Positions 4,978 to 30,400 of a stretch of DNA of 38,813 bases are shown in pieces. Within the stretch, counting starts at the first letter, position 1. The number at the start of each line of letters is the position of its first letter. The translations under genes were made by a program, and so were the position numbers. This DNA comes from a virus, in the IMG/VR virus record IMGVR_UViG_3300020469_000103, positions 1 to 38,813 of that record. One strand, written 5' to 3'. The notes beneath the pieces are model-generated. The model worked only from the letters and a program-made list of their open reading frames with translations. It had not been told where the DNA came from and did no database searches.

Positions 4978-5171
4978 CCGACAAGTTTAATTTCTACACC
5001 GCACTCGGTCTGCACATGCTGTTGCCGATACTCTTCATCCTCTCATTTATCGCAGGGTTTGTGACCATTTGGCTGGCAACGCCCGACCCTATGGACACCG
5101 TGATTTACATTGAAGACGAGGAGGCTTTTCACCAAGCCTGCTTTAACGGTATGCGGAGAGGAATCCAGTGA
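4974..5171 (+). CDS. Small single-pass membrane protein (65 aa)
   Basis: Starts at GTG 4974, overlapping the previous stop (GTGA), and ends in the same way on the GTG of the lyase gene. Residues about 10-35 form one strongly hydrophobic segment (LHMLLPILFILSFIAGFV), followed by an acidic tail (IYIEDEEAF). It could be a membrane anchor, a holin-like protein or a partner of the lyase. Function unknown. Confidence 0.7.
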   Translation: MTDKFNFYTALGLHMLLPILFILSFIAGFVTIWLATPDPMDTVIYIEDEEAFHQACFNGMRRGIQ

Positions 5172-6007
5172 AAGTCTCCATCTACGAGGTTGGCCCTCGT
5201 GATGGACTTCAAGCCCTTAAACGCCCGGTAAATACACAGACAAAGGTAAAACTCATCAACGCTCTTTACAACGCTGGCCTCAAAAAAGTAGAAGAAACCA
5301 GTTTTGCACATCCCAAACTTGTGCCGCAAATGGCAGATGCAGAAGATGTATTTCGTAAAGGTAGCGTTCTCATCATGAACAAGCGTGGCTACGACAGGGC
5401 TTTGGCTGTTGGGGCCACAAAATTCAACATCGTGTTTTCACCCTGCGAGACTTTCAACATGAAGAACATGGGCAAGACTCGCAGTGAGATTGTGCTGATG
5501 TACAAGACCTTCATGGACAAAGTGCCCAAAAAGAATGTTCGGGTGTACATCAGTATGGCGTTTGGCTCTCCTTACAGCGGAACACCAAGCATGAATACTC
5601 TCATCTCATGTATTCGTGATGCAAAGATGTTTGGTCGTACTGTTGTATTTGCTGACACTGTTGGGGCTGGCACACGAAAAGAAGTTATCACAATGGCTGA
5701 ACTTGCAAAGAAGGAGCAAATGAAAGCCGCTTTGCATCTCCATCACCAAGGTGATGAAAGCACTGCACTGGAACTGGTTCGTGCAGGGTTGTTTAGTGGT
5801 ATCACTGAGTTTGACTCAAGCATCGGTGGACTGGGTGGTTGCCCATTCACTGATAACAGCGGCGCAAATATCTCAACAGAATCTCTTGTTCTTCACTTAT
5901 CCGCTTGGGGTTTTGACAGTGGAGTGGATAAAACAGCACTAAAACACGCGATTAAAATTGCTGAGAAAATAAAACTCAGTGAAAGGGAGAATGGAATAGC
6001 GGCATGA
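5168..6007 (+). CDS. HMG-CoA lyase-like enzyme (279 aa)
   Basis: The HMG-CoA lyase family cleaves 3-hydroxy-3-methylglutaryl-CoA to acetyl-CoA and acetoacetate in a TIM barrel. The key family pieces are visible in order: EVGPRDGLQ at residues 7-15 with the Arg and Asp used in catalysis and metal binding; EETSFAHP at 42-49; ADTVGAGT; the metal ligands HLH at 190-192; and GGLGGC at 220-225 with the active-site Cys. Length is close to the usual 300 residues. The start is GTG 5168, preceded by GGAGAGG (about 5154-5160) and overlapping the upstream stop. A related acyl-CoA lyase or aldolase activity cannot be excluded. It is an auxiliary metabolic gene; the 3' end overlaps a convergent gene by 32 bases. 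Confidence 0.85.
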   Translation: MKVSIYEVGPRDGLQALKRPVNTQTKVKLINALYNAGLKKVEETSFAHPKLVPQMADAEDVFRKGSVLIMNKRGYDRALAVGATKFNIVFSPCETFNMKNMGKTRSEIVLMYKTFMDKVPKKNVRVYISMAFGSPYSGTPSMNTLISCIRDAKMFGRTVVFADTVGAGTRKEVITMAELAKKEQMKAALHLHHQGDESTALELVRAGLFSGITEFDSSIGGLGGCPFTDNSGANISTESLVLHLSAWGFDSGVDKTALKHAIKIAEKIKLSERENGIAA

Positions 6008-7676: not shown

Positions 7677-9038
7677 ATGGCGAGGGTGCTGATAAGCAAG
7701 GCTACTCTCGCTGATTTTGGTGTGACCCCCCCATCCGAAGAGATGCAACACTACGCTGATATGCGAAACGAGTACAGGCGGAACCAACCAACAGCCGAAG
7801 ACATGGAGCGCATTGTGCGTGAAAGTGATATTGCATTGACACCAAAAGAGTTCGTCAACAAAGTTCCTCTTATTGACCGACAAGTAAGTGGAAGTGATGA
7901 GCGATTTGGAGGAGTGGGTGAGCAGTTTGGTCGTCAAATGGGGTTAGAAGGTGCACTTGCACAAGGATTGGTCGCCCGTGATTTTCCTTCTGTTTTAGAT
8001 GTTGATACGACTTTGCAGGCATCTGCAAGAAATCTTCCCTTTTTGCGTGATTACCACAGTCGTCAATCATCCTTGCCCGAATACGATTGGTCATACAAAA
8101 CCGAAGGGCCGTATTATGACGAGCAAGGCAACATCTTACCCGGCCAAGTACCACCCGTTGATGCGATAAAAATCATGGGAGAAGACGACATTGCCAGCAT
8201 GGGCACAAGAGAAGGCTACGGGCTAAAACCTGTACCATTTGCAAGAGTCAATATGGATTGGGAAGAAGGTATGCTAAATACTCGGCGTTTTCCTTCCGAA
8301 AACATTGGTTTTATAGGAAACTTGTCACGAGATGACATAAGAGCCAATGTAGCAGGAAATGTAGGGGGTAATAGAGATAAAGGTGCTGTTGGTATTCGTG
8401 GTTTTGGTCGTCCACAAGACAAAGCATTCGCTCGTGGGGCTATAAGTGAAGGAATTGAGGCAGGGATTACAGCACCCATTTCACCCGAAAGACTTGTTGG
8501 AGTAATGCCAAGCACACGCATGAGCGCAGAAGAAGCAGAAAATAATGCGCTAAAACATATCTATTCACCTAAACTTACATATGACCAAAAATTGTATCAA
8601 CTTGTAGATGAGGGTAAAATTTCACCAATTGACGCTATGTATGCTACAATTCGTATGAGAGCAAAACAAATAAAAGACCCCAATTTAAGAGATAGCCCGA
8701 TATTCGGAGACATTTATCCTCCATTCGCAAGGTTAGAAGGCACTGATGCTGGTAATTTTCAACATCGTGGGCATTTAAGAGAATACACAGGGGCGACATC
8801 GGCAGACAAACTTGTGGGAAGAGAATATAGTGATGCACTACCCTTAGCGTGGCAACAAGGTGTTTTTGGACTTGAAAATCCGTTGCTTACCGAAGCCGAA
8901 AAACTGGCTTACATTGAAGACATAAATAGACATGAAAAAAGACCTACCGGGTACAATTATGAAGCAGATGTAATGAATCAACCACCGGAAAAATTGCGAA
9001 CACTTTATCCAAAGAAAACGGGGGTGCGTTTCGCATGA
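7677..9038 (+). CDS. Unknown virion-associated-like protein (453 aa)
   Basis: The open frame extends far upstream, but that part is the shadow of the leftward gene. ATG 7677 is set by the TATA box at 7650. The N-terminus MARVLISKA is the shared leader peptide. The rest is hydrophilic, rich in Arg, Asp and Tyr, with no transmembrane segment, cysteine cluster or recognised catalytic motif. The gene overlaps the next by ATGA, so the two are coupled. I do not recognise a family. Confidence 0.75.
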   Translation: MARVLISKATLADFGVTPPSEEMQHYADMRNEYRRNQPTAEDMERIVRESDIALTPKEFVNKVPLIDRQVSGSDERFGGVGEQFGRQMGLEGALAQGLVARDFPSVLDVDTTLQASARNLPFLRDYHSRQSSLPEYDWSYKTEGPYYDEQGNILPGQVPPVDAIKIMGEDDIASMGTREGYGLKPVPFARVNMDWEEGMLNTRRFPSENIGFIGNLSRDDIRANVAGNVGGNRDKGAVGIRGFGRPQDKAFARGAISEGIEAGITAPISPERLVGVMPSTRMSAEEAENNALKHIYSPKLTYDQKLYQLVDEGKISPIDAMYATIRMRAKQIKDPNLRDSPIFGDIYPPFARLEGTDAGNFQHRGHLREYTGATSADKLVGREYSDALPLAWQQGVFGLENPLLTEAEKLAYIEDINRHEKRPTGYNYEADVMNQPPEKLRTLYPKKTGVRFA

Positions 9039-10960
9039 AGCCCGTGTTGGTCATCAAGGCTTTGCCTAAACACTGGTCAAATTATTTTGACACAGTAAAT
9101 CAACTTCATGACTTCCTTCGTGGTTCCGATGGTATGGTTCGTGTTTCTTCGCTTTCCGATTTGGAAAATTTGGAAACGCCACCAAGTAATAGAGATTCAG
9201 TCCAAGGTTGGGAGTTGCAACACACAGGAAATGGTATGCAAAGTCTCATTCCCGGCATCGCTCAAGGACAAGTTTTCAATCAAGACATGGTGGATGAAGG
9301 AGTGATATTTGGCTATCCACCAAATAGGTCACCTTTTGCAAAAAAAACATACTCCTTGGGAGACATACCCCCATCAGACCGTCCCGCAGGGCTTGCTTTT
9401 ATTGACCAAAAACCGGATTTTCACGGTACAACAAGGGAAGGTAGAGTACAAACCGAAGGAACAATTCACGGTGGAATAAGCCCCGACCAAGCAATTTTAC
9501 TTACAGACCCAACAAAACCAATCAACCGACAAGAATTAGCACATGCGGGTTTTGGTCGCAATCAAGGTCAAAATTGGTTAGCAAGTGTTGATGAGGAATT
9601 TCATGACGAGCCACGAGGTCGGGCTGAACAAGCACTTAACATGCTTCCAATGCCTACTACCGAGGCACCCTTCCCCAGTGCTTATGGGCCATACAGTAAA
9701 TGGGGTGAACCACGCACTGTAGATAGAGTTCTTCTCAGCGAACCAATGGATATTGCTATGCGGTTGCTCAAGATGCCCTTAATTCCCGAATCAATCAAGC
9801 GAGTATCGGATAATCGTGCAGAAGCACAATTCCAAGACCCTATAACAAATCAAGTTTACCCAATGGTAGCCGAAAAAGACCCTAAGTATGGGACTATGAA
9901 TGTAGGGATATATCCTAATCAACCCGGACAGAATCTTGGTGCGCCTTCGGCACTTGATGCTATGGATATGACCGATAAAGACATTGACAAAGATGTAAAA
10001 GAAATGTTAGGTCTTGGTTTATCTAATGCTGAATTAACCGAAACAATTGAAGATAACCCATATTACGAATCGGATATGACTTGGACTGACCCGGAGAAAA
10101 GAAGGAGAGGTTATGCTTCTGCTTTGTATGACCTTGTAAATCAATTAGATGAGCAAAAGGTAAGACCAAGTAATAATCAAAGTTATGAAGGAAAGCAATT
10201 ATGGTCAAAAAGAATGTTACCCAAAGGCGAACCAATGGACATCGCCTTCCAACTGCTCAAGGAGCGTGTAAGCCCCGAAGCCAAGCGGCACAAGTTAGAG
10301 TACGACAAGAAGTACGAATCCAGCCCGGAGCGGGTGAAGTATCGGGAAGAGTTGAACCGTGAACGCCGTCGCCGTGGTATCTACGGTAGCCACGACCATA
10401 AGGACATTAGCCACACCGAGGGCGGTAAATTGACCCTTGAAGGCGAGCATGAAAACAGGGCACGGCACTTCAAAGACAAGGGAACCCTACGCCAAGTGAA
10501 TAAAGCACAACAAACATTACCTTCATACGACGAAAAAATGGTTCAAAGTTTGACAAAACCCAACCAATCTACTATGTATATTTCATCAAGACCGGGAAGA
10601 GAAACAGTATCAGCAGAAGAACAAAGTGCAAAACATGATGAACTATTAGCGGCTATTGCTAAGTTGAATAAGAATGGGAAAATGAATTTGTTGACTGGTA
10701 CAGGTAAGGGAGAATGGGGTAATGAACACTCTATTGCTATACAAAATTACCCACCGGGAATAAAACAACAATTGTATGAATTAGCACGAAGATACGGACA
10801 AGATGCTGTAGCAGAATCTAATGCGAGAGAAAAGGGTATGCGGTTTGTAAATCCTGCAAGCGGTGAAGATACTTTTTCCTTTGGTGGTCGTGAAATACAG
10901 GAAAACCCCCGATACAGTACAGATTTTCCCACAGGGCAAAAGATTTCATTTACTGAGTAA
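9035..10960 (+). CDS. Large protein with GNAT-like segment and two AW-LK motifs (641 aa)
   Basis: Coupled to the previous gene by ATGA. The N-terminus MKPVLVIKA is the shared leader. EPMDIAMRLLK (236-246) and EPMDIAFQLLK (399-409) are two copies of the dispersed motif and appear to bracket a domain. That domain holds EKRRRGYASALYDLV and then a PSNNQSYEGKQLW stretch, which together resemble the acetyl-CoA-binding loop and C-terminal part of GNAT acetyltransferases. The last 120 residues (GEWGNEHS, then LARRYGQDAV) look like a separate small domain found in some phage proteins, resembling DUF3293; that match is weak. A multi-domain virion protein is my reading. Confidence 0.7.
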   Translation: MKPVLVIKALPKHWSNYFDTVNQLHDFLRGSDGMVRVSSLSDLENLETPPSNRDSVQGWELQHTGNGMQSLIPGIAQGQVFNQDMVDEGVIFGYPPNRSPFAKKTYSLGDIPPSDRPAGLAFIDQKPDFHGTTREGRVQTEGTIHGGISPDQAILLTDPTKPINRQELAHAGFGRNQGQNWLASVDEEFHDEPRGRAEQALNMLPMPTTEAPFPSAYGPYSKWGEPRTVDRVLLSEPMDIAMRLLKMPLIPESIKRVSDNRAEAQFQDPITNQVYPMVAEKDPKYGTMNVGIYPNQPGQNLGAPSALDAMDMTDKDIDKDVKEMLGLGLSNAELTETIEDNPYYESDMTWTDPEKRRRGYASALYDLVNQLDEQKVRPSNNQSYEGKQLWSKRMLPKGEPMDIAFQLLKERVSPEAKRHKLEYDKKYESSPERVKYREELNRERRRRGIYGSHDHKDISHTEGGKLTLEGEHENRARHFKDKGTLRQVNKAQQTLPSYDEKMVQSLTKPNQSTMYISSRPGRETVSAEEQSAKHDELLAAIAKLNKNGKMNLLTGTGKGEWGNEHSIAIQNYPPGIKQQLYELARRYGQDAVAESNAREKGMRFVNPASGEDTFSFGGREIQENPRYSTDFPTGQKISFTE

Positions 10961-11180: not shown

Positions 11181-11720
11181 ATGCAACAAGGTAGCAACAC
11201 ATCCGACGCTGAAATCCGACTTATGGGCCTAATTCTCGCTCAATCCGCACTCGTGGGTTTAGCAATTGGTCTGTTTGACGCAGACATGTGGTTAAACACC
11301 AATGACCCGATGGTAAACGGTTTCACTTACGCCATGGCCGCTTTCTTTGTGCAAGGAATAGCGTACTACTTCTTCAAAATGTTCTTTGAACAAAACATGC
11401 AAGAGCGTGTACGAGTTCAAAACATGGAGCGAGAGAGACAAGGCCGATACCGTTCTATGCAGTATCAGTTTGATAACCGCAGGTCGGAAATGGAACTTCG
11501 TATGCAAGAAGCACAACTTGAACAAGAATTGCGTTGGATGGAAAACAATCCCGGTAAAATGCCTCCATCATGGGGTGTACCGGGAGGTGCACCTTCGCTT
11601 GTACAACAACAAGAAAACAAACTCATTAGCAATCCACCTAAGCATTCCGCAGAAATCAAAACACCAGTCAATCTTGGTATCAAGCAAGATGAAGACTCTT
11701 CAAAGAAAAAAGATGACTGA
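11181..11720 (+). CDS. Two-pass membrane protein with coiled-coil tail (179 aa)
   Basis: First gene of an operon running to 14667. Two hydrophobic segments are visible, about residues 14-32 (LMGLILAQSALVGLAIGL) and 48-69 (MAAFFVQGIAYYFFKMFF). They are followed by a long charged helix about 75-125 rich in Glu, Gln, Arg and Met (MQERVRVQNMERERQ), and a flexible Lys/Asp-rich tail. The likely topology is a hairpin in the membrane with a cytoplasmic coiled coil, which could be the docking arm for the GTPase two genes downstream. No family recognised. Confidence 0.75.
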   Translation: MQQGSNTSDAEIRLMGLILAQSALVGLAIGLFDADMWLNTNDPMVNGFTYAMAAFFVQGIAYYFFKMFFEQNMQERVRVQNMERERQGRYRSMQYQFDNRRSEMELRMQEAQLEQELRWMENNPGKMPPSWGVPGGAPSLVQQQENKLISNPPKHSAEIKTPVNLGIKQDEDSSKKKDD

Positions 11721-11731
11721 GTGGTGATGTT

Positions 11732-11992
11732 TTGGGACGCATTTTCAAAACGCCTACGGACGATTCTACCGAGGCTACGCTTCGTGCGATGCACACCCAA
11801 AATACATTGGACAATTATTACGAAAGGGGTGTTGGGTGGCTACGAACCATCCTTTTTGTTGGATTAGCAATACTCATTACCAGTTATTGGGAACTACACA
11901 CAGGTGAATCAGCATGGGAAAACACAGTAGAATGGGCATGGGACAAGGCACAAGACTTCGCAGATTGGTTATGGGGGCTTGTCAATGGTTGA
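11732..11992 (+). CDS. Single-pass membrane protein (86 aa)
   Basis: The start appears to be TTG 11732, preceded by GGTGATG; no ATG or GTG in this frame lies between the upstream in-frame stop and the membrane segment. Residues about 35-52 (WLRTILFVGLAILITSYW) form one transmembrane helix, followed by a Trp-rich amphipathic stretch (WAWDKAQDFADWLWGL) that could lie on the membrane. The gene overlaps the GTPase start. Function unknown; a membrane partner of the GTPase is a reasonable guess. Confidence 0.65.
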   Translation: MGRIFKTPTDDSTEATLRAMHTQNTLDNYYERGVGWLRTILFVGLAILITSYWELHTGESAWENTVEWAWDKAQDFADWLWGLVNG

Positions 11993-12701
11993 GCCAGCGG
12001 GCACAGCAGTTGTTGGTGCGATGGTATGGGGTAAAGCCATATTCAATGCGTGGAGGCCACGCAAGGTCGGCATTTACGGAGCGGGATTGACAGGCAAGAC
12101 TACCCTTGACCGCTACATGACGACACCCGGTGAAATGGAAGAAATACCCGAAGAGGACAGAACGACACATTTCAAAATGCTCGGACGACACATGCTCCCT
12201 AAACCATCACGCAAGCGTGTTTCATGGAAGGGAGAAAAGCGTGTGGTGTTTTCTGCTGATGTAGGTGGACAAGAACGGTTTTGGAATTTGTGGATTGACG
12301 ACATGGTGGCTCGTCAAGTGGAGTGCGTTGTGTACTTGTTTGATGACCGAGCCATCAAAGGAGGTGATGAGGCTTTGCAACAGATTGCAGGCTTCAAGTA
12401 TCTCGTGGATGCCATTATCAATCGTCAATATCGCTACCGCAACTTCAAAAGCCGATGGAAAGGCAAGAAGTATGTACCTAAACTCATCATGCTCGTGGCT
12501 AACAAAGCCGACCGTTTCTTTGATGAAACTGCTGTTATGCTTTGGCAACAAGACCGTATCGGTGAACATAAAATTTTTGACGCATTCCGTGATGACCTTA
12601 TTCGCTTGCAGAAAGCAGGTGTACCCACTCGTCGCTCATTCATGGCAACACGAATTGGATGGAATGTGGATGCAACCATGGTAAATCTCTTAACATCGTA
12701 G
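11985..12701 (+). CDS. Arf/Ras-like small GTPase (238 aa)
   Basis: All main GTP-binding motifs are visible: P-loop GAGLTGKT (residues 32-39), DVGGQ (92-96) in the form typical of Arf-family proteins rather than DTxGQ, and NKAD (173-176) for guanine specificity. A threonine pair (60-61) could be the switch I Thr, and ATRIGWN may correspond to the last base-contacting loop. The N-terminus before the P-loop is partly hydrophobic. At 238 residues it is longer than a core GTPase; the extra length lies between DVGGQ and NKAD. ATG 11985 overlaps the membrane gene upstream. GTP binding is well supported. The role is unknown; membrane-linked switching fits the operon. Confidence 0.88.
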   Translation: MVEPAGTAVVGAMVWGKAIFNAWRPRKVGIYGAGLTGKTTLDRYMTTPGEMEEIPEEDRTTHFKMLGRHMLPKPSRKRVSWKGEKRVVFSADVGGQERFWNLWIDDMVARQVECVVYLFDDRAIKGGDEALQQIAGFKYLVDAIINRQYRYRNFKSRWKGKKYVPKLIMLVANKADRFFDETAVMLWQQDRIGEHKIFDAFRDDLIRLQKAGVPTRRSFMATRIGWNVDATMVNLLTS

Positions 12702-12709
12702 GTGGGAAA

Positions 12710-12877
12710 ATGACAAAAACAACAGTAGCATCGGTAGGACAAACAAGCAACAGTGTTCGCACGGTTATCCCCATGTGGATTGCAGAATTGATGGGGCTTG
12801 AAAAGGGTGCAAAAATAAAATGGGAACTGGTACGCACAGAAGAAGGATATGCCGCTCAATTTGTAGGTGAAGAATAA
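12710..12877 (+). CDS. AbrB/SpoVT-like DNA-binding protein (55 aa)
   Basis: ATG 12710 follows GGTGGG. The 55 residues fit a swapped-hairpin AbrB domain: SNSVRTVIPMWIAELMGLEKGAKI has the R-x-x-IP...LGL..G pattern of that family. Such proteins bind DNA as dimers and are common archaeal and viral regulators. Its place between the GTPase and a large unknown gene, sharing TAATG with the latter, suggests it may control its own operon. Longer upstream frames run into the GTPase gene and are not needed. Confidence 0.8.
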   Translation: MTKTTVASVGQTSNSVRTVIPMWIAELMGLEKGAKIKWELVRTEEGYAAQFVGEE

Positions 12878-13806
12878 TGATGAATTTTACGAGACAACAA
12901 CAACAAACGCTTGGTGATGCAAATAACGCACACTTGTATGCACTCGCTCAACAAGGTAATGCCGGTTTATCTCATGCGGCACTTACAGAACAAGCGACAG
13001 CACAACAGCAAATGCAGGCTGTAGCAGGTGAACAGAACTTGCAGGTACCAAAGGTCAACTTCTACCCTTCACGCCATCCCGACCCGCACAAGGCTCGGCG
13101 TAAAGACATCAAGCAAGCCTACAAACTTCTTATGCCTTCAAAGCGAAACATTCTCAATCCTGTTCGCTGGTTGTTTGGACGCAAACACCGATACGACAAG
13201 CAAACACATGTCTGTGTAGTTGATGGGTGTGATTGTGCAACTCTTATTCAATACGATAACTTGTATGCTAAAATTTGCGACGAGGACACTGGCCGAAGTC
13301 TTTGGGAAATGTATTGGCAGAACCCTGTCACTGGCGAGGCTGAGGCATTTATCGCTAAGGACAAGGTGACCAACGGACGCAAAATGCGTGGCACCTACTG
13401 TCCCGAACACCTTCATTTGTATCATTTGCTGTGCAAGTGGGAGACTGAAGAGGACAAGGTGCGTGAAAACAATCCACGCCGCCTTCGTGACCATGTGAAG
13501 CGTGGTGTAAGTGTGGTGACTGTTCCAGTGGCCAGTATTGCGAGGAAAGACCCAACGCCACCGATGCTTGAAAAATACGAGCCATTTTTTGATGAGTTGA
13601 TGAGGGACTCAAAGAAAACCAAAGGAATTAACATCATACACTACCAAAATCCCGTCAGCAAACAAAACGATGTCACCATGGTGGTGTTTGATTTGCGTAT
13701 TTTTGAGCATGAATTAGCAATGATGAATCAACCAACACAGGCTTTTCAAAATATGATGGGCAATCAAAACGCTCTTGAACAAGAAGGTCTTGGGGGAAAT
13801 GAGTGA
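12877..13806 (+). CDS. Unknown protein with Cys/His cluster (309 aa)
   Basis: Starts at ATG 12877 in a TAATG overlap. The first 50 residues are Gln- and Ala-rich. The middle has CVVDGCDC, later a single Cys, then YCPEHLHLYHLLC, which together could bind zinc. The C-terminal third (GINIIHYQNP, then DVTMVVFDLRIFEHE) looks like a folded beta-containing domain and ends in a flexible Gln/Asn/Met-rich tail. No family recognised. It is coupled to the next gene by an 8-base overlap, inside the membrane-GTPase operon. Confidence 0.75.
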   Translation: MMNFTRQQQQTLGDANNAHLYALAQQGNAGLSHAALTEQATAQQQMQAVAGEQNLQVPKVNFYPSRHPDPHKARRKDIKQAYKLLMPSKRNILNPVRWLFGRKHRYDKQTHVCVVDGCDCATLIQYDNLYAKICDEDTGRSLWEMYWQNPVTGEAEAFIAKDKVTNGRKMRGTYCPEHLHLYHLLCKWETEEDKVRENNPRRLRDHVKRGVSVVTVPVASIARKDPTPPMLEKYEPFFDELMRDSKKTKGINIIHYQNPVSKQNDVTMVVFDLRIFEHELAMMNQPTQAFQNMMGNQNALEQEGLGGNE

Positions 13807-14425
13807 CATGTTAGGACTCGGCGGAAACAATCAAGCACCGATGAACAATGGTGCACTCAATTTAGGAGTACAGGGCCATCAACAACCCTACCCTCAACAA
13901 CAAAATGCTTTCGGGCAAATGGCGCAAAATCCCTTCATGCAAGGCATGACCGGGGGCGCATCAGCACAATGGGGGCAACAACCTGTTGCACCACCGACTG
14001 AAATTGAAATGCAAATTATGTTGCTTCGTGGTATTGTTCCTTTGGACAGGTTCATGGCAAGTCAACAAATGGCTACTCTTATTCAGTTGTTGAACAACCT
14101 CGTTAGTTTCAGTGTTCTTGAAGTTATGAAAAATGCTGTTTTCGCAGAAGATGGAGATGGAAACCTCAAAATGGATATTACAAAACTCCCACCACATTTG
14201 CAAACAATGAGTGCGGAAAACATCAAGGCTGAGTTTAACACTCTTCAAAGCACAGCACAGCAAAACATCTCAGTGGCAGAACAAGGACAACAACAAATTG
14301 CGGCTTACTCACAACAAAATTTGATGAGCGGTGCACTTTCAGCGGCTTTGGCTGATGAAGGTATGATGGAAAAAGTCGGCGGTGGAGTGGGTAGTGTCGC
14401 ACGAGGACTAATGGGGTTGAGATAA
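13799..14425 (+). CDS. Gln/Met-rich protein of unknown function (208 aa)
   Basis: ATG 13799 is preceded by GGGGGAA and overlaps the upstream stop; ATG 13808 is an alternative. The first 70 residues are low complexity (Gln, Asn, Gly, Met, Pro). Residues about 70-125 form a helical core (IMLLRGIVPLDRFMASQQM, then LIQLLNNLVSF), followed by another Gln-rich helix and a glycine-rich C-terminus. No transmembrane segment is certain. The style resembles the low-complexity proteins around the terminase. Function unknown. Confidence 0.75.
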   Translation: MSDMLGLGGNNQAPMNNGALNLGVQGHQQPYPQQQNAFGQMAQNPFMQGMTGGASAQWGQQPVAPPTEIEMQIMLLRGIVPLDRFMASQQMATLIQLLNNLVSFSVLEVMKNAVFAEDGDGNLKMDITKLPPHLQTMSAENIKAEFNTLQSTAQQNISVAEQGQQQIAAYSQQNLMSGALSAALADEGMMEKVGGGVGSVARGLMGLR

Positions 14426-14667
14426 TGGATAAAAGTATGATGCTTGGACAATCTTTTGCGGCTACATCACTCAATGTGATGAACCCTAATCGTAGTGTAA
14501 TAGTTGACATGATTATGGTACAGATTCTTTCAGCCATTATCACACTGTCAATGTTGCTTTTGATGAAAGGTAATGAAATTGGCTCTACTAACGCTTCCTA
14601 CCTTTTGGTAGGACTGGCTGGTACACTTGTCTTTTTGACGGCTGTTTACTCACGAATCACGAGATGA
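14425..14667 (+). CDS. Two-pass small membrane protein (80 aa)
   Basis: TAATG overlap at 14425. Two hydrophobic helices, about residues 24-47 (VDMIMVQILSAIITLSMLLL) and 58-76 (SYLLVGLAGTLVFLTAVYS), are joined by a short polar loop. Size and topology fit a holin, but the operon position with the GTPase and other membrane proteins suits a structural membrane role equally well. The end overlaps the convergent zinc protein by 18 bases. Confidence 0.7.
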   Translation: MDKSMMLGQSFAATSLNVMNPNRSVIVDMIMVQILSAIITLSMLLLMKGNEIGSTNASYLLVGLAGTLVFLTAVYSRITR

Positions 14668-14907
14668 CGGCCACTTTCCAATCGGGCACTCCGAGGAAAG
14701 AAGAGCGACTTTTGTGTTGACAAAACAACCACACTGCGTACATCTTTTCCCTTGTTTGAAAGGACAAACACTGCATATGCGGGCACGCTCTTCACGGAGC
14801 ATTGGTAGAGCCTCACGACCCATGGCCTTGTCCTTTACAGCGTTGGTGAGACTACGGATTGTATCGTAGTTGAGAGGTACTTTTGCTACCCTCGGCATCC
14901 TTCGCAT
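14650..14907 (-). CDS. Small zinc-binding protein (85 aa)
   Basis: Leftward gene from ATG 14907; 14898 is a possible shorter start. The C-terminal half has CSVCPF, then CTQCGCF, then ECPIGKW. This CxxC...CxxCxC...CP..KW layout is seen in small phage-encoded zinc proteins of unknown function. The N-terminal half is basic and helical. The start lies 26 bases from the two-way TATA box at 14930, so the transcript is probably leaderless. Confidence 0.8.
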   Translation of the reverse strand: MRRMPRVAKVPLNYDTIRSLTNAVKDKAMGREALPMLREERARICSVCPFKQGKRCTQCGCFVNTKVALLSSECPIGKWPSSRDS

Positions 14908-14957: not shown

Positions 14958-15635
14958 ATGGCGGGGGAGCGTGTCACGAAAAGGTCGTGTGCATTTTGCA
15001 CCCATGATGACCGTGATTCATTGGAGGAGCAGATGCTTCAAGGATTTATTTCGGCCCGCCAATTAGACAAAGACATGGGGTGGAGAAGCAACACCGCAGA
15101 CCGGCATTATCGCAATCACATGGGAGATTACCACATGGCGGCAAATACAGATTGTGCTCTTTGTACAACTCCCATGCGTAGCGAATATGAACGAGTGTAT
15201 TTTGAGGATGGAAGTGTAAGCCCGCAGATTGCCCAAGAACTGGGAATATCCGAGGACAATGTGTATCATCACATGCGACATCATTTTCAACCACTTGTAC
15301 AGAAGTCTGCCGCTATTGAAGTGGCTCTTACTGCTGGACATGAAATTTCACTTCTCCGCTCAAACGCTGAAAAATTAAATCACAAACTCGGTGAGTTGTT
15401 AGAAGAGGGTACTGTGCATGAAGATGGCTTCGTGCGAGATGCGGTGGCATTGCACAAAGAAGTGCGTGAGACAGTCAAAGACCTTCTGCGCTTCCAAGAC
15501 CAATGGGGTGCACAAAGCGACGGCCAGCAAGTCAATCAAACATTCAACATTTTGCAAGTGGAGTTAGGAAAGGAAAGTCCCGATACATGGATGCGAATCA
15601 AAAAGCAGTTGCAAGACAACATGGGGGTTGAATAA
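14958..15635 (+). CDS. Double zinc-finger/HTH protein, candidate small terminase (225 aa)
   Basis: The protein contains a duplicated unit: C11-x2-C14 ... H50-x3-H54 and C66-x2-C69 ... H104/H105-x3-H108/H109, each with a helix-turn-helix-like part between (the second reads SPQIAQELGISEDNVYHHM). Residues about 125-185 are a long helix (LRSNAEKLNHKLGELLEEG). DNA binding is well supported by the paired CxxC...HxxxH units. As the first gene of the late operon that contains the large terminase, it is the best candidate in the window for the small terminase subunit; this role is inference. The start is leaderless, and the end joins the next gene by TAATG. Confidence 0.7.
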   Translation: MAGERVTKRSCAFCTHDDRDSLEEQMLQGFISARQLDKDMGWRSNTADRHYRNHMGDYHMAANTDCALCTTPMRSEYERVYFEDGSVSPQIAQELGISEDNVYHHMRHHFQPLVQKSAAIEVALTAGHEISLLRSNAEKLNHKLGELLEEGTVHEDGFVRDAVALHKEVRETVKDLLRFQDQWGAQSDGQQVNQTFNILQVELGKESPDTWMRIKKQLQDNMGVE

Positions 15636-17371
15636 TGCCAATGGGTCGTGGTTCCGATACTCGCATGTACTCGCCTCGTAGCGAGTCGGACAAAATGTAT
15701 TCTTCTGCTAATGAAGATGGCGGTAAGTACAATCCCGCTGACCCGGAGTACAACGAGCAAAAGCGTGAGGATAAAAAGCGCAAGGCTGAGGAAAAGAAAG
15801 CCAAGCGTGCAAAAGTAAAGCACATCAAAATCCGTGCCTCACAAGGATTGAGTGGAGAAGAGTCTCCTTCGCCACTGGATGATGGCAACAAGCGTGATGA
15901 TGAGCGTGAAATAGGACTTCAAGGTGGCCCTGCCGGAAGTCGGGGTACACTTCTTGACCTCGCTACTGGGGCAAAGAGTGGAACAGGCTCAGCCATGAGT
16001 CCCGGCCTTCCAATCACCATGAGCGAGCCGATGGGTGATGCTTGGAGTACATTGTTGAAGGCTTCACTTGAGGATTTGGTTCAAGAGCGGGACAGACTTC
16101 TTCAATCGGGACTTAAACAGGAGGCAAAGCAGTTTGACCATGTTATTCAACAAATGATGCGCCCCGACCGCCAAGAACAACAGATGTTGCAAAACATCGG
16201 CGTTCCTACTGCAAAACTTGTCATGCCCGAACTTGAAGGTGAAGAGTTGGAGGACATTGGACGGGAAATCATGTATGACGGTAAGCAAAACCCCGACTAC
16301 ATTGAAATGCAACGCCGAATGGGTGGCTACGACCCACAAACAAGGCAAGAGTTCATGCGAAATGTTAGCCGCATGAATCGTCGTATGCCTAAAATTGATG
16401 AGGCTCGTGAGCAGGCACAACAAAGTTTGCAAAATTTACAAGCCGCAGACCCAAGCCGCTATTTTGCTGACCAAGAAGTGATGACTGGCGAGCCGATGGA
16501 GGATGCTTGGAGTACACTACTCAAGCGTGAAACAGCACGCTCAATTGCAGGGCGACGAAGGCGTGAGGCACGCCAGCAGTTTCGCCCATCCACAGGTCAA
16601 TTCAAAACGCCGCCGGGTGGTATGAGTGGCGGGGCTGGTGCTACAATGCGCCGCTTCAAAGCACAGATGCGTGGTATCAAGAGTGGCAAAAAGACGGGGT
16701 TGATGAAGCCACACCTATCGGTTGAGATGAGCCACCGTGGTATTCAAACCAAGCAACCACTGTCCAAAGACCCACAGAAGTACACACAGTACAAAGGACA
16801 ATCCGAGGCCCGTAAAATCTTGGGCAATGTTCGCACACCGTTCTCACCGCACGCACGGTACGGTGCCCGCTCCAACTACGCTGGCCCCACGGGTGGAGGA
16901 CGACTCGGTGGATTGATGGCTGGACAAAGTGGACAAATGGCTCGTCCGGCACTTCGTCGTATGCGTCGTCCTCGTATGCCTCGTATGCCTCGTATGCGTG
17001 CTCCTATGCCTCCTTCTCCTCCTATGATGCCACAAGCGCAATCCAGCGTGCCTGCTATGCCTTCTCCTTCTTCCAGCATTATGATGAGCGAAGAGCGATA
17101 CCGAAGTGAAATACTTAAGGCTCGCAACAGTCTTCATCGTATTGAGTTGCTTAATCTCATGCGGCGACTTATTCAAGCCAAAGAGCGTGAAGCGAAAATA
17201 AAGAAAAACTTGACAGCGACAGATGCCGCAGATTTACCCGGTCATCCTGCTGGTGTCAAACCGACTGATGACGAAGACCCACAAGGCCCAACCGAGAACC
17301 TTGAGACTGATGCCAAGACTTTCGGGCTTGACCCTGTTGGTATTATCAATAGCCGAAGGGGGCAAATGTGA
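15635..17371 (+). CDS. Basic low-complexity protein with two AW-LK motifs (578 aa)
   Basis: TAATG start. The N-terminal 75 residues are strongly charged (REDKKRKAEEKKAKRAKVK). EPMGDAWSTLLK (131-142) and EPMEDAWSTLLK (286-297) are near-identical copies of the dispersed motif and are also nearly identical in DNA, suggesting an internal duplication. After residue 300 the chain is Arg/Gly/Pro-rich, with an RRMRRPRMPRMPRMRAP tract, then a helical part (RSEILKARNSLHRIELLNL). High positive charge could mean contact with packaged DNA. No family recognised; virion-internal protein is my guess. Confidence 0.75.
   Translation: MPMGRGSDTRMYSPRSESDKMYSSANEDGGKYNPADPEYNEQKREDKKRKAEEKKAKRAKVKHIKIRASQGLSGEESPSPLDDGNKRDDEREIGLQGGPAGSRGTLLDLATGAKSGTGSAMSPGLPITMSEPMGDAWSTLLKASLEDLVQERDRLLQSGLKQEAKQFDHVIQQMMRPDRQEQQMLQNIGVPTAKLVMPELEGEELEDIGREIMYDGKQNPDYIEMQRRMGGYDPQTRQEFMRNVSRMNRRMPKIDEAREQAQQSLQNLQAADPSRYFADQEVMTGEPMEDAWSTLLKRETARSIAGRRRREARQQFRPSTGQFKTPPGGMSGGAGATMRRFKAQMRGIKSGKKTGLMKPHLSVEMSHRGIQTKQPLSKDPQKYTQYKGQSEARKILGNVRTPFSPHARYGARSNYAGPTGGGRLGGLMAGQSGQMARPALRRMRRPRMPRMPRMRAPMPPSPPMMPQAQSSVPAMPSPSSSIMMSEERYRSEILKARNSLHRIELLNLMRRLIQAKEREAKIKKNLTATDAADLPGHPAGVKPTDDEDPQGPTENLETDAKTFGLDPVGIINSRRGQM
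16967..16996 (+). repeat. Short coding repeat (CGTATGCCT units)
   Basis: Repeated CGTATGCCT-type 9-base units encode the Arg-Met-Pro tract of the 15635-17371 gene. Confidence 0.6.
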
Positions 17372-19329
17372 TGATGATTCGTGTGGGTCGTCCTCTCAAG
17401 AAGGCATGGAGCCTTGTGGGACACGGGCCAGCGGGAGCGCAGATTTTCCGCAATCCCCCACCACAGGCTTTCCGCCCCGAAGGAGAAGATGACCTTCCCG
17501 CACATGCTCACGATGGTGTGGGAAACCTTCTTCCCGGCCAGTGGGCTATCGGAGAACACGGTCAAAAGTCGTATCAAACCGAGATTGGTGCTTTCCATCA
17601 CCCCATTGACGCTGTAGCGCACCGACTTGGTGATTTTTTGCGTGCAAGAGGACTCAACATTCCAGCCTCCGAAGTCATCAACAACGCTATCAACGAGTTC
17701 AATGATACACATTCTCACGGTGATGCACACGCACTGGGAAGTTTTGACTCGGATGAATGGCGCAAAATCCGTGCCGCCGATGTACCACCGGGTGATTCTT
17801 CACGCCAAATGAGTAATCGCCCTACACGCACCAAAGGTGGTACCAAAATCACGATGCTCACCAATAAGAATCATCAACAAACCCCTGTGGGTAAATTTGT
17901 TGAAGGTGGCTACATTCCATTTCACCGTAATTTAATGCACCAGTTGGAAGACATGGGCATTTCTCATCAAGAAGTCAAGCAGGGACTTAGTTTCCTCAAA
18001 TATCCATGGATGCAACCTTCGTTGCTTGCTCCTCAAGGATTCCTCGTATCAAACCAAAAACAACACGGTGCCGATGTTGATGAGGCTATGATGAGTCGTG
18101 GCCCGGAAGGATTCTTTGGAGATACTGAAGCGGTACACACTTGGGAAGTCATGCACCACCTTCCCGATGCTTTCTTCTACCCCAATGTTAAACAAAACAT
18201 GCAAAAGAAAGGCAAACAACCTACAGGTCTGTATAAAGCCGCTCACGCTATGATTGACCAAGCCATGCAACAAGGCATGGAACACATTCCTAATGTGAAT
18301 GTCTCGGTCAATACAGGCACACTTGGTGCCCCGCAGATGATAAACCGACCACTTCATGAAATACTTCAAACGCCCGACCTCCGTGAATCATTAGTCAAAG
18401 ACATGGCACATGTTCCCGCTATGATGTTCCTGTTTGGTCGCAGTGGACAGGGTGATTTCAAGCGACTGTACGACCATATGATGGAAAAATATGGTGCATC
18501 CGAAGACATGCTTTCAGCAGGTGAACAAGCCAAGTACCTTTCAGCAGGTAGCAAGGGTGGTAAAGGAATGCACGAGTCGGCTAAGCGTATGTTTGCTCTT
18601 GCCCGTGCATCGGGTGAGGGTAGTGAAGATGGTCGTAGCCGATTTGGTGAACACGGCATCTCGGCTGACGAACTTCAAGCAATGGGTATGCACCACAGCG
18701 ATACACTGATGAATCAAGTAGATAGGTTTCGTGGTATTCTTGAGGCACTGGCTGACCACCAAGCCAGCGCACGAGGCCACGAAGTCAAGCGTGGTATTGG
18801 CGATGTACCTACCACGGCCCGTCCGGGGATGTCCATTGGTGGCTATCCCGAAATGAACACCGAGACAGGAGAATACTCCATGCCCCCTCTTGATGAACAC
18901 ATGGACGCTTATTTCCATCAAGTCCATGACTTTGCACCAACGGAGGCGTTTGACCCCTCCCTTTCACCGTCGCCCGAACCGCAGGTCATTTCTTCACCTG
19001 TTCAATCCGCTTCTCCTGTTGCGGTTCCATCTCCGGCTCCATCTCCGGTTCGGGCGGCACCTTCTTCTTTCCCGCATACTGCAAGACAGCAATATCAACA
19101 ATTGCGACCGCAAATTGGGCAACTTGACCCCATGCAGTTCCGACAACTGCTTGAACAATCGGGCCGTCGCAGACCCATGCCGATGAGTGATGCACCGCTT
19201 TCTCCCAAGGAAGCGGCGGCACAGCGACTCATGGCTGACCCACAGCAATCTCTTCTCAGCGAGTATTACAAGTCCATGGACAAAGCCATGGATGATGTCA
19301 TGCGAATTGTAAAAGGTGGACGACGATGA
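17371..19329 (+). CDS. Large His/Met-rich protein of unknown function (652 aa)
   Basis: GTG 17368 or either ATG at 17371 or 17374 could start it; I use 17371. The N-terminus reads IRVGRPLKKAWSLV, a weak relative of the shared leader and AW motif. Residues to about 490 appear folded and rich in His, Met and Gln. Residues about 520-570 are a Pro/Ser-rich linker (SPSPEPQVISSPVQS). The C-terminus holds a helical end, DKAMDDVMRIVKGGRR, a variant of the dispersed motif. No catalytic signature recognised. It is coupled to the next gene by ATGA. Confidence 0.75.
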   Translation: MMIRVGRPLKKAWSLVGHGPAGAQIFRNPPPQAFRPEGEDDLPAHAHDGVGNLLPGQWAIGEHGQKSYQTEIGAFHHPIDAVAHRLGDFLRARGLNIPASEVINNAINEFNDTHSHGDAHALGSFDSDEWRKIRAADVPPGDSSRQMSNRPTRTKGGTKITMLTNKNHQQTPVGKFVEGGYIPFHRNLMHQLEDMGISHQEVKQGLSFLKYPWMQPSLLAPQGFLVSNQKQHGADVDEAMMSRGPEGFFGDTEAVHTWEVMHHLPDAFFYPNVKQNMQKKGKQPTGLYKAAHAMIDQAMQQGMEHIPNVNVSVNTGTLGAPQMINRPLHEILQTPDLRESLVKDMAHVPAMMFLFGRSGQGDFKRLYDHMMEKYGASEDMLSAGEQAKYLSAGSKGGKGMHESAKRMFALARASGEGSEDGRSRFGEHGISADELQAMGMHHSDTLMNQVDRFRGILEALADHQASARGHEVKRGIGDVPTTARPGMSIGGYPEMNTETGEYSMPPLDEHMDAYFHQVHDFAPTEAFDPSLSPSPEPQVISSPVQSASPVAVPSPAPSPVRAAPSSFPHTARQQYQQLRPQIGQLDPMQFRQLLEQSGRRRPMPMSDAPLSPKEAAAQRLMADPQQSLLSEYYKSMDKAMDDVMRIVKGGRR

Positions 19330-20535: not shown

Positions 20536-22026
20536 ATGAGCGACATGGAGGCGTTTATTCACGACATGGACAGAAAGATGTCTGCAAAGTCGTTTGAATA
20601 CTTCTTCAAGGAGATTTTAGGGTTTGATTACTCCGGCCATCACAAGTCGTGGGACGAGGGGCTGGCTGACAACCGCTACTACTGCGTGAAAGCATCTCGT
20701 GACCACGGTAAGTCTGTTTTCTTCATGTCCTACGCCCTGTGGATTGCCGCTTTTCAACCCGGTAAACACATCATGATTTTCTCGCACTCATTGGAACAGA
20801 CGCTTGAGCACATGCGTTTCATTCGTCAAAACATTGAGAACACACCTTCCATTCGCTATCTTATCCCCGAAGGCCGACCATGGCGCAAGACCTACTTTGA
20901 GTTCAGCAACGGTAGCCGTATCATGGCCAAGTCGGTCGGCGGTGGAACTCGTGGTTTCCACCCGGATGTTGTGTTGTGTGACGATATTCTATGGGGTACG
21001 ACGGGTACTGAACTACAGCGTGCCGCAGACTGGTTCTACGGTGTCCTGCTCCCTGTTCTCCACCACACGGGTCGTCTTATGATGGTGGGTACACCATTTT
21101 CGTACAACGACTTGTACTCTCAGTTGGAGCAGACTGAGACATTCCAAGTAGAGACATACCCCGCCATCAACAAAGAAGGCGAAGCCCTGTGGCCGGAGCG
21201 GTGGGATTTAGATTCACTCGGTCAAAGGCGGTTAAGTATGCCCGCTATTCAATTTTCTCGTGAATACCTGTGTGAACCTATTCACGATGTTGCCAGTATG
21301 TTCCCTAACGATATATTGGAAAAGGCTCGCAACAAAGACCTCGTACTTCTTGACCGTGCTGATACAGAATATGATGCAGAAGGTGAACCAGCGGGGGTTT
21401 TCGGTCAACATTTCATTGGGTGGGATACTGCAATTGCATCGGACAAAAACGCTGACTTTACTGCCATGACGGTTATGCGTATGTTGCCAAATGAAAATGT
21501 CAAACAAATCGTTGGTATCGTCCACGAGCGTGGTATGTCGGGGCTGGCGCAGAAGAATCAAATCATGATGCTTAACAACCGCTTTCAGCCCGACCTCATT
21601 GAGTTGGAAGGGAACAACTTCCAGCGTATGTTTCAAGCCGAATTGCTTGAAATGCGTCAAGACATTCCAATCAAGACTTTCATGACAACACGCACACGCA
21701 AGGAAAGCCTGTTCATGTCATTGTTGATGGCCTTTGAACAAGGGCAAATTCAAACGCCGTATGGTGATAAGCGAAGTCGTGAGTTTACACACAAGTTAGA
21801 GACTGAACTCAACCGTTTCGGTATGCAAAAGAATGGTAAGTTGGAAAGCGTGGGTACACACGACGACTTAGCCATGTCTCTTGCATTAGCCAATTGGGGT
21901 ACAAAGGAGTTCAAAGGTTCAGTTGTTCTTCTTGATGATGTGCTACCCGGCTTTGATGAGTGGATTCGTGGTAAACCACACCGCTCACAAGATAATAATC
22001 CGGCTGACGGGTGGATGATACCATGA
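20536..22026 (+). CDS. terL: Terminase large subunit (496 aa)
   Basis: DNA-packaging motor: ATPase plus nuclease. The ATPase part has a variant P-loop SRDHGKS (residues 54-60) and Walker B VVLCDD (145-150). The C-terminal RNase-H-like nuclease has GWDTAIASD with D297, the acidic ELEGNN (E358) and HDDLAMSLAL (D443/D444). Length and motif order are typical of TerL. ATG 20536 follows GAGGTGA at 20525-20531. It lies between the low-complexity proteins and a run of tiny zinc genes, and the portal follows only after about 2.4 kb. Confidence 0.93.
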   Translation: MSDMEAFIHDMDRKMSAKSFEYFFKEILGFDYSGHHKSWDEGLADNRYYCVKASRDHGKSVFFMSYALWIAAFQPGKHIMIFSHSLEQTLEHMRFIRQNIENTPSIRYLIPEGRPWRKTYFEFSNGSRIMAKSVGGGTRGFHPDVVLCDDILWGTTGTELQRAADWFYGVLLPVLHHTGRLMMVGTPFSYNDLYSQLEQTETFQVETYPAINKEGEALWPERWDLDSLGQRRLSMPAIQFSREYLCEPIHDVASMFPNDILEKARNKDLVLLDRADTEYDAEGEPAGVFGQHFIGWDTAIASDKNADFTAMTVMRMLPNENVKQIVGIVHERGMSGLAQKNQIMMLNNRFQPDLIELEGNNFQRMFQAELLEMRQDIPIKTFMTTRTRKESLFMSLLMAFEQGQIQTPYGDKRSREFTHKLETELNRFGMQKNGKLESVGTHDDLAMSLALANWGTKEFKGSVVLLDDVLPGFDEWIRGKPHRSQDNNPADGWMIP

Positions 22027-27493: not shown

Positions 27494-30400
27494 GTGAACG
27501 ACCATTTCTATGTGTGTAGTAATCAACTACTCAAATCATTGGATGATGGTCTTGACCTTGTTTATTCGGCGGCTGAATACATTCTTGCCTACGAAGCACT
27601 TGACACTACTCCAAGCGAACCGCTGTTCAAATCACTCAAAGCCACGGCTGAGATGATTTACAAGAATAAAGAACAAGCAGAAAAAGATGCAGTAAAAGTC
27701 GGTGAAACTGATTACAAATATCCCGAAGGTATGGGCTACTTGTTTGCTCTTCAACACTCACACGGTGAACCAACCAATCATGTATGGAAAGACGGCCTTC
27801 AATCACCTGTAAACAAAAAACACGGCCATGCAATGTGGCCGTACTATCAACCAAAAGACGGTACTCATCCGTATCAGCGGCATCACTTCCCGTTTCACGA
27901 AGTCAACCACCCACTTCTTCGCACCAACGCAGTGTCGGGAATGCCTGCGTATGTGGAGATGCTACGCAATTGGGCACTGGGTGGACACGGTGAAACCGAA
28001 AAGGAAATGGAAAAGCAATTCTTTGATACTCTTGGTAAAGACCATCCTCTTGTTGGTGGGTTTCAGCAGAAAGGAGGAAAGAAAGTAAACATTCTTGGTG
28101 ATACCCGTCCTAACGGCACACTTCTTCATCACCAGCATGACATGTATGAACGAGACTACTTCCGTTGGTTGAAGCAAAATATCAATCGGCAAGACGAGTT
28201 GCAGGTTGAGGGCATGGACAATGCTGAAGTCAAAGAACAACTTCGCAAAGAACACTTTGCTGACCGAGCGGCTATGTGGGAAGCCGACGACGATAGTAAC
28301 ATGATGCTTAGCGATAAGTACGAAGAACACCCAACACGGCTTGGACACCTTGGCTACATGCTCGGTCTTGAATGGTTTGACCCCGAAGAGCGCACAGCCA
28401 TTATGGAACATATCGGTGAAAAGGGTCTTGACGACCATGATTTGATTTCTTTACCGAATGGACAAAAGTTTCCTGCCGCTCGCCTCAAGTACAACGCTCT
28501 CATGCGTATGACCCCCGAAATGAATTGGGCTATGCGCCCGATGACACACATGGGACGCAACGCACACTACCATCAAGAAGACAATGAAAACGACTACACT
28601 GCTGGTGAAAGCAACATGTTTTTGCAACAGTCCATGGGGAGATTTGCCCATGAACCCATGGATGAATTTGATGGCCATTCCCTTTCCGAAATTATTCTTG
28701 AACGCATCCGAGACAACTACGGCATATCGGGACATCACAAGTTTCTACCACGCCTCTATGTGGACAAGAATCCAATGAAGGAACTTGACCAAGACGAAAT
28801 GAAAGATGCAATGGCAAGTCACTTCAAAGTAAAGGGAAAAAAGCGAAGTCTTGACGATGTGCGAATGAGCAAGGCTGATTTGCTTTACTTGGCTGGCTAC
28901 GACCCCAAGACACGGGAGTTGATGACCGACCATCCAATTCACGGTAAATTGGAAGAACCAATTGTGAATGCTGATTTAATTGACGACATTGAATCCATGG
29001 CTAAAGCAAACTCTTCACTCCATGCTGGTATCAAGGATGTTCGCAACCATCGGGCCTTTTTCACTTCTCCGCACGGCCCTCATCCAAACGAGGAAAAACC
29101 GGATTACTGGCGAAACCACAGCGATGGTTTTACCTACGGCCCCGGTCGCTTTTGGGACTCAGCCTTTGCAAAGACAGGTGGGGCAGGTATGACACTTGCG
29201 ACTTATCATGACATCCTCCACGCTACACACGCCGATGAGGATGGCCTTTCACCTTTCACAGAACTAAGCGATGGTGGTGCAAATTACATCAATCCGAATC
29301 CCGATAACACGACGCTCGCTCACCATTTTATGCCATTGAAAACAAAATTGATTGGTGAGTTTGGCGAGAAAATGAAGAAGGTAAACACAAGTGAAAAACA
29401 ATTCGTTTCTACTGGTAAGGGCTTTTCATACTTTAACCAAAAAGAGTTGCTACAAAACATACTTTCTCCCGTAGGCCATTCTAAAAAACGAGCATACCGG
29501 GATGGCTCAACCAGCAAGAACAACTACACAGAACACAAGACAACGCTCAACCCCGATTACGAGTACACGATTCGTCAAATGACGGATAAGGAACGCAAAG
29601 ACAGGTTTGGTACCCATCTCAAACCTTTGACATTTCCACACACGGTTATTCCCACTTATCATGTTGGTGGCTTCACATCCTACGGCGCATCTCCTTCGGA
29701 CAGCAACATGCACAAGAACGCACAACTGGCTCACTTCCTTGAAACGCTTGGTGGGCGTATGAATCACCCTAATCAACCAGCGCAAAAATCACTTATGAAA
29801 GTTCAAAACTTCCTTCGTGGAGATGAAGCGTTTAGTGGTGGAGAAAGCAAAGAGCATTTCATTGATTTTATGCGATGGACTGGTGGTAGTGGTTTTTCGT
29901 TTAATGCGTTGAAGAATCAAGTGTTGACCAATCCCGATATGAATCATGCCATGACAGCCATTACTCAAGCGTCAAAAATACTGGGTACACAAGACCCAAA
30001 AGAGATTCTTGAGTACCTTATGCACGGTAGAAACACTCTTCCGATGGCACCCGGCGTTGCCGCAGAAAAACATCCCGAATTAAACACTGCTTTGTTAGGC
30101 CGAGGTCTTGGTGAGTTTGATGAAAAGAAGTTGCTTTCTTCTCTTCAAAGCATGACGGAAACCATGACTGAGGAACTGCAAGCGAAGAAAAAGACACAGA
30201 AAACAAAAACCACAATGGCGGCTGACGAAAAGGATGCCGTGTCTCGTTTGCTTCAATTCGGTGGTATGTTACCTGCTTCGCAACAAGAATCCGAACTTAC
30301 GACCAACCTTGAAGAGTTAAATCAAGAGTTGACTGAAAAGCAAATGACTGGCGCACCCATTGAAGAATTGCAACCGTTGATGATTGAAATCAACAATATG

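Follow-up and report, generated by a model that had tools for sequence, protein, structure and literature searches.

A conserved operon encoding a divergent small GTPase and membrane proteins in magroviruses

Small GTPases that act at membranes are a hallmark of eukaryotic traffic, and viral small GTPases are already known, in giant eukaryotic viruses. For Euryarchaeota, vesicle budding by a small GTPase was demonstrated recently: in Haloferax volcanii, budding is driven by the small GTPase ArvA, which bears an amphipathic helix at its N-terminus, and vesicle release decreases upon loss of ArvA and increases upon its overproduction. The operon partners of ArvA are ArvB and ArvC, the latter a Zn-ribbon protein suspected of being a GTPase-activating protein (PMC10927574). 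Here, we describe an operon encoding a small GTPase together with membrane proteins, located at positions 11181-14667 of a 38,813-nucleotide stretch of viral DNA (IMG/VR record IMGVR_UViG_3300020469_000103; the whole stretch is referred to below as the window). The window represents part of a magrovirus genome (order Magrovirales), and the membrane-GTPase module is a core feature of magroviruses.

Seven genes were confirmed within the module, which is no product of chance. They are given below with the genes that follow them (TM, transmembrane; HTH, helix-turn-helix; E, E-value; fractions refer to the 84 loci compared):

11181-11720, plus strand: A179, a two-TM hairpin followed by approximately 60 residues of charged coiled coil, a putative cytosolic arm
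11732-11992, plus strand: B86, a single-TM protein with an acidic, Trp-rich C-terminus
11979-12701, plus strand: divergent small GTPase whose N-terminus forms a hydrophobic helix; likely start ATG at 11985
12710-12877, plus strand: AbrB/MazE-like small protein (SxSLRTTIPxWIV...L..GxKIxW); 63/84
12877-13806, plus strand: C309, a Cys/His protein, the most conserved neighbour of the GTPase inside the module; 84/84
13775-14425, plus strand: D216, with a Q/G-rich N-terminus and a conserved helical region (alignment A6); 84/84
14425-14667, plus strand: E80, a two-TM protein; 84/84
14650-14907, minus strand: DUF6171-like small Cys-rich protein, accessory (PF19668, E 9e-7; phrog_13558, E 7e-12); 46/84
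14958-15635, plus strand: H225, a CxxC/His plus HTH protein (median identity 64%); 84/84
15635-19329, plus strand: I578 and J653, large downstream genes; I578-related in 84/84, J653 in 80/84
20536-22026, plus strand: large terminase subunit (TerL; phrog_38, E 2e-60)

The order A179-B86-GTPase-(AbrB)-C309-D216-E80-(DUF6171, opposite strand)-H225-I578-J653 was found in all 83 relatives whose loci were identified through the GTPase (84 loci with the window), as far as the contigs extend; the AbrB-like and DUF6171-like genes are variable, and J653 was undetected in a few loci. Such a survey had been proposed in a reading of the DNA made without database searches (the sequence-only reading), which let the operon close at position 14667; the conserved block turned out to continue to 19329 and the terminase. 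Because the survey was anchored on the GTPase, the group was resampled independently by its major capsid protein (MCP) gene. Among 55 capsid-bearing contigs tested in this way, 31 carry the GTPase gene and the remaining 24 all end short of its position, which lies approximately 22-23 kb upstream of the MCP gene; the gene is thus present on every contig spanning the locus (31/31). All tailed viruses of Poseidoniales, archaea that are abundant in the sea, appear to carry the module beside their DNA-packaging genes.

The GTPase is also conserved in sequence, with a median identity of 71%, vs. 72% for the TerL stretch compared. Its dN/dS ratio against close relatives is 0.02-0.03, which indicates strong purifying selection, and the ratio for each neighbour tested, likewise against close relatives, is below 0.2. 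The module lies directly upstream of TerL and of H225, a candidate small terminase subunit (TerS) with weak HTH matches, whose terminase role is suggested by gene position. This location in the head cluster and the conservation on a par with TerL would suit a packaging or capsid-assembly checkpoint, in which the GTPase would set the timing of the terminase or prohead, and the membrane proteins would only anchor assembly and leave the membrane unremodelled. We consider this unlikely, given that three of the seven products are membrane proteins and that the module is missing near the terminase in haloviruses whose portal is related.

The sequence-only reading had placed the module outside the standard tailed-virus set, which is borne out by two comparisons: (i) the GTPase, C309 and H225 gave no tblastn match among 50,697 phage records, and (ii) the terminase region of halovirus HCTV-5 is devoid of module genes, with a single weak HTH match, to H225. 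In the genome contig collection, all GTPase matches were to short contigs that share the viral gene order. These contigs, NZMJ01000140.1, JABLTJ010000060.1 and PAUP01000076.1, belong to metagenome-assembled genomes (MAGs) labelled Maricaulis, Asgard archaeon and Cytophagaceae, respectively, and were rejected as cellular homologues, since their gene order marks them as magrovirus contigs misbinned in these MAGs; the Asgard-labelled contig could pass for a source of an Asgard GTPase. No host homologue of the GTPase was found, Poseidoniales being covered only through the genome contig collection.

An ordinary host GTPase acquired by one virus, the outcome against which the sequence-only reading had set its proposal, is refuted as stated and, in our view, has hardly any likelihood left. 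The fold agrees with it, and nothing beyond; against it, every relative sampled has the gene, its neighbours are fixed (kept in 83/83 loci), all genome contig matches are misbinned magrovirus sequences, and the closest cellular proteins are remote (E 5e-6 at best). Recent acquisition of a host gene was rejected on the same grounds.

Genes for superinfection exclusion and host takeover are usually variable and early. The magrovirus module is invariant and sits in the late cluster, which argues against a role in which the viral GTPase would compete with a host one while the membrane proteins alter the envelope to keep out other viruses or redirect the membrane traffic of the host. Such a role is consistent with the control of vesicle budding by small GTPases in Euryarchaeota (PMC10927574) and with the lack of the module in the related halovirus region; overall, we hold it to be improbable.

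The assignment to Magrovirales was made indirectly, through published features (PMC10768690, PMC12999244). These features are an HK97 head module related to that of Druskaviridae, a family B DNA polymerase (PolB), an HMG-CoA lyase (HMGL)-like gene and a genome of 90-110 kb; the magrovirus identity follows from the archaeal kinship of the portal, the HMGL-type lyase, and the PolB and length of the long relatives. PolB is encoded by 17/17 long relatives (83-116 kb), its gene lying outside this 38.8 kb fragment. All database relatives of the window portal are archaeal, namely those of haloviruses HCTV-5/HVTV-1 (28%) and of methanogen viruses. Druskaviridae (HCTV-5, HVTV-1) have the closest described portal and a similar head gene order, and differ in that the terminase region of HCTV-5 lacks the module genes. 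The HMGL-type lyase is a listed feature of Aoguangviridae (PMC10768690), and Poseidoniales are the presumed hosts of Magrovirales (PMC12999244). Genes for TerL, the portal, the head protease and the MCP also lie within the window, on the same strand and in the same cluster as the GTPase module. In one relative (G062; IMGVR 3300037961_002468, 110,196 bases) the GTPase gene is divided between both contig ends, so this contig probably represents a whole genome, circular or permuted.

The GTPase reads GIYGAGLTGKTT ... DVGGQERFWNLW ... NKAD ... MATRIGW and contains the motifs G1 (GAGLTGKTT), G3 (DVGGQ), G4 (NKAD) and G5 (MATRIGW), of which G1, G4 and G5 are retained in all 84 homologous reading frames. 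In one further observation, in the GTPase frame L377 (contig G057, IMGVR 3300009703_000017) a TGA codon replaces the Trp codon of the near-identical L376, a nonsense change or an assembly error. Among 44 relatives (alignment A1), the invariant residues are G, K, T and T of the P-loop, D and the second G of switch II, W102, L104 and W105, NKAD, and MAT..GW. The AlphaFold2 model built from this alignment has a small-GTPase fold (pLDDT 81, pTM 0.80), and Foldseek matched it to 887 solved chains at E <0.001, headed by Sec4, RhoA, KRAS and Rheb (Ras/Rho/Rab matches, E 4e-8 to 2e-7). Carrying G1, G3, G4 and G5 in that order within such a fold, the protein belongs to the Ras superfamily as a divergent member. 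The single sequence matched nothing in Pfam or PHROGs, and phmmer and profile searches of the PDB gave nothing significant, so that the placement came from fold comparison alone. Giant eukaryotic virus GTPases, found among the BFVD matches, are likewise viral and share the small-GTPase fold, but are of the eukaryotic Rab/Ras/Ran type, belong to another virus realm and show 10-18% identity.

The sequence-only reading had called the GTPase Arf-type and had taken DVGGQ as the Arf-family form. The second point does not hold, as the Gln is not conserved in the viral family: the catalytic position is occupied by Q in 20, E in 18 and D in 6 of the 44 members, and by His in a few others. The first stands in part. 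In its favour, the FWxLW switch II is shared by the best profile and tree neighbours, which are Arf-like proteins of Asgard archaea. Searches of 148 Asgard genomes gave weak best cellular matches (E 5e-6 to 0.007); for each of the five scanned, Arf was the top Pfam family, and five of the matches share DxGGQxxFWxLW or a close form of switch II with the viral GTPase (L393, DMGGQKDYWNGW). In two trees the viral clade, on a long branch (approximately 2.3), groups with these FW-type proteins with support of 97/97 and 98/96, the partners having been selected for matching the viral profile. By hhalign, the FW-type proteins scored E 2.8e-14 (prob 98), vs. 1.7e-5 for ArvA, and small family sets gave Ras 4e-11, Arf 1.6e-7 and Rag 1.5e-6, an order of E-values that is a guide only because the sets differ in depth. 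On the other side, none of the 44 members reached the gathering cut-off of PF00025 (Arf), which had no match in the window; their commonest Pfam match was a weak one to Roc (22/44, best E 0.00075), with Arf in 1/44 (E 0.021). Approximately unbiased (AU) tests left the other clades unrejected (Ras p 0.098, Arf core 0.109, Rag 0.307, ArvA 0.089). As the matched partners were preselected and the AU tests reject no other clade, an Arf-like origin is our best guess from sequence comparison, and is a guess at origin, not membership.

The likenesses to Asgard FW-type proteins (L384-L386, L392 and L393) comprise the LPT...DxGGQxxFWxLW pattern, the best hhalign match, and PF00025 as the top Pfam match in two scanned. 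They differ in length and in having another N-terminal domain: each consists of approximately 300 amino acids and combines an Arf-like GTPase domain with a Cys-containing domain at the N-terminus, and we know of no description of such proteins. With Arf/Arl/Sar (PF00025) the viral GTPase shares GKTT, DxGGQ, the LW conserved in switch II and an N-terminal helix; it differs in the unconserved Gln, the lack of a W ahead of DxGG and a longer switch I. The latter exceeds that of Arf by some 20-30 residues and contains an invariant TTPGEM..I....RT.H motif. Nor is the N-myristoylated Gly2, an Arf hallmark, conserved: viral N-termini read MVEP, MSA or similar, and the hydrophobic helix is present. The G2 threonine would be T/S77 (40 T and 4 S of 44) by the Arf-like alignment, or the invariant T62 in IPEExRT by comparison with ArvA; as Asgard ArvA has a similar IPxExRT piece, either residue may fill this role.

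ArvA (ArvABC, OapA; HVO_3014-3012) is similarly an archaeal small GTPase with an N-terminal hydrophobic helix in a membrane context, its operon and the viral one both encode a Cys/His (possible zinc) protein, and the two GTPases share a short GIYG...GKTTL...IPxExRT stretch (42% over 36 columns, hhalign E 1.7e-5). In contrast to the viral G3 (DxGG[QEDH]), that of ArvA is DMPG, of the MMR_HSR1 type, and the viral partners are small TM proteins. No match to ArvB (OapB, PF09846) or ArvC (DUF2072) was found when the viral module was compared with Pfam, the best Asgard ArvA scored 10.8 bits on alignment A1, and the best tree puts ArvA elsewhere. By these sequence comparisons, the viral module is not a member of ArvABC; by analogy, it may work like ArvA.

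The genes around the GTPase are those described in the sequence-only reading, namely membrane proteins and an AbrB-like gene; in the AbrB-like family PF04014 matches 18 of 20 members (best E 1.9e-5), the window copy being under the cut-off. One clade of relatives lacks this gene and keeps the DUF6171-like gene, which lies on the minus strand inside a plus-strand block. Hydropathy predicts two TM segments in A179 (10-36 and 51-69), one in B86 (31-58), two in E80 and none in the GTPase. A179, correctly described at the outset as a hairpin protein with a coiled coil, was found in 83/84 sequences, the sole exception being a contig that ends at that position. Its invariant residues are GLI, G26, W37, N46, TY, M52 and KM (alignment A2), and its net charge is -3 in the inter-TM loop and +1 in the first 30 residues past TM2. 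B86, also present in 83/84 sequences, has a conserved N-terminal RIFKTPxDD..EETLRAMH..N..D..YE (alignment A3), and E80 has conserved VDM-M-Q at TM1 and Y-R-I at the C-terminus (alignment A4). In C309, residues C113, C175, H178, H180 and H183 are invariant and C118 nearly so (alignment A5), a pattern that suggests a zinc site; its structure model is of low confidence and gave no Foldseek or PDB match, and no known fold was recognised. For D216, the start codon is uncertain and lies between 13775 and approximately 13808.

Membrane proteins with a coiled-coil arm, encoded in a virion-morphogenesis cluster, might also be virion components, together with the GTPase, with a function at the host membrane during delivery of the genome. 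This is improbable: lipid-free tailed HK97-type virions are predicted for the group (PMC10768690), and a regulated GTPase fits less well inside a particle.

As the parts of the viral module resemble those of ArvABC (a helix-bearing GTPase and a Cys/His partner) and are joined by three membrane proteins, we prefer a GTP-switched membrane complex. Specifically, we propose, tentatively and short of an even chance, that the module acts late in infection as a GTP switch bound to the cytoplasmic membrane, which it would dock at or remodel so that virions can be assembled or released. The GTPase would act with A179, B86, E80 and the soluble C309 and D216 at the inner face of the host cytoplasmic membrane. 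In its GTP-bound form it would insert or expose the N-terminal hydrophobic helix, bind the membrane proteins and recruit C309/D216, leading to docking of virion assembly or to membrane remodelling for assembly or egress; GTP hydrolysis would then reset the switch. The GTPase with its motifs, the TM segments, the constancy of the gene set, its position ahead of the terminase genes and the purifying selection are observed; what we infer is that the genes are expressed late, that their products form a complex acting on the membrane, and that this complex serves assembly or egress. Several points weigh against this proposal. The GTPase helix (model residues 7-25), which is hydrophobic and not TM-like, is weakly amphipathic (moment 0.2-0.35), and pLDDT is low at residues 1-8. 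The module partners match no known membrane-remodelling family, and the genes nearby could encode parts of the virion or of the packaging machinery that have nothing to do with membrane shape. To our knowledge, the magrovirus group has no cultured virus. A bolder form of the proposal is that this dominant group of tailed viruses of marine archaea has, in its core gene set, a GTPase-driven membrane-remodelling machine for membrane-associated assembly or non-lytic egress, an Arf-like vesicle switch that arose in a prokaryotic virus and is independent of ArvABC and ESCRT; this strikes us as unlikely.

Other genes of the window were also of note. A possible metabolic gene, the HMGL-like lyase gene (5168-6007; PF00682, E 1.5e-21), was found in roughly one third of loci; many contigs stop short of that position. 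A 1928-amino-acid open reading frame (27494-33280) lies between the portal and head protease genes; its only match, a weak and DNA-ligase-like one, covers 1471-1598 (PF01068, E 0.0003). The proteins encoded at 9035-10960 and 15635-17371 are both large, and their profiles cross-match in many loci; the former matches phrog_6437 over a segment (E 7e-16) and has a GNAT-like stretch, RRRGYASALYD.

No publication joining a magrovirus with a GTPase was found, and an earlier mention in the main magrovirus papers is possible. As far as found, a core small GTPase in a fixed operon with membrane proteins, in an abundant group of ocean viruses, would be the first in prokaryotic viruses. The GTPase is a strong marker gene for magroviruses, and the module would offer a testable entry into the assembly and exit of marine archaeal viruses.

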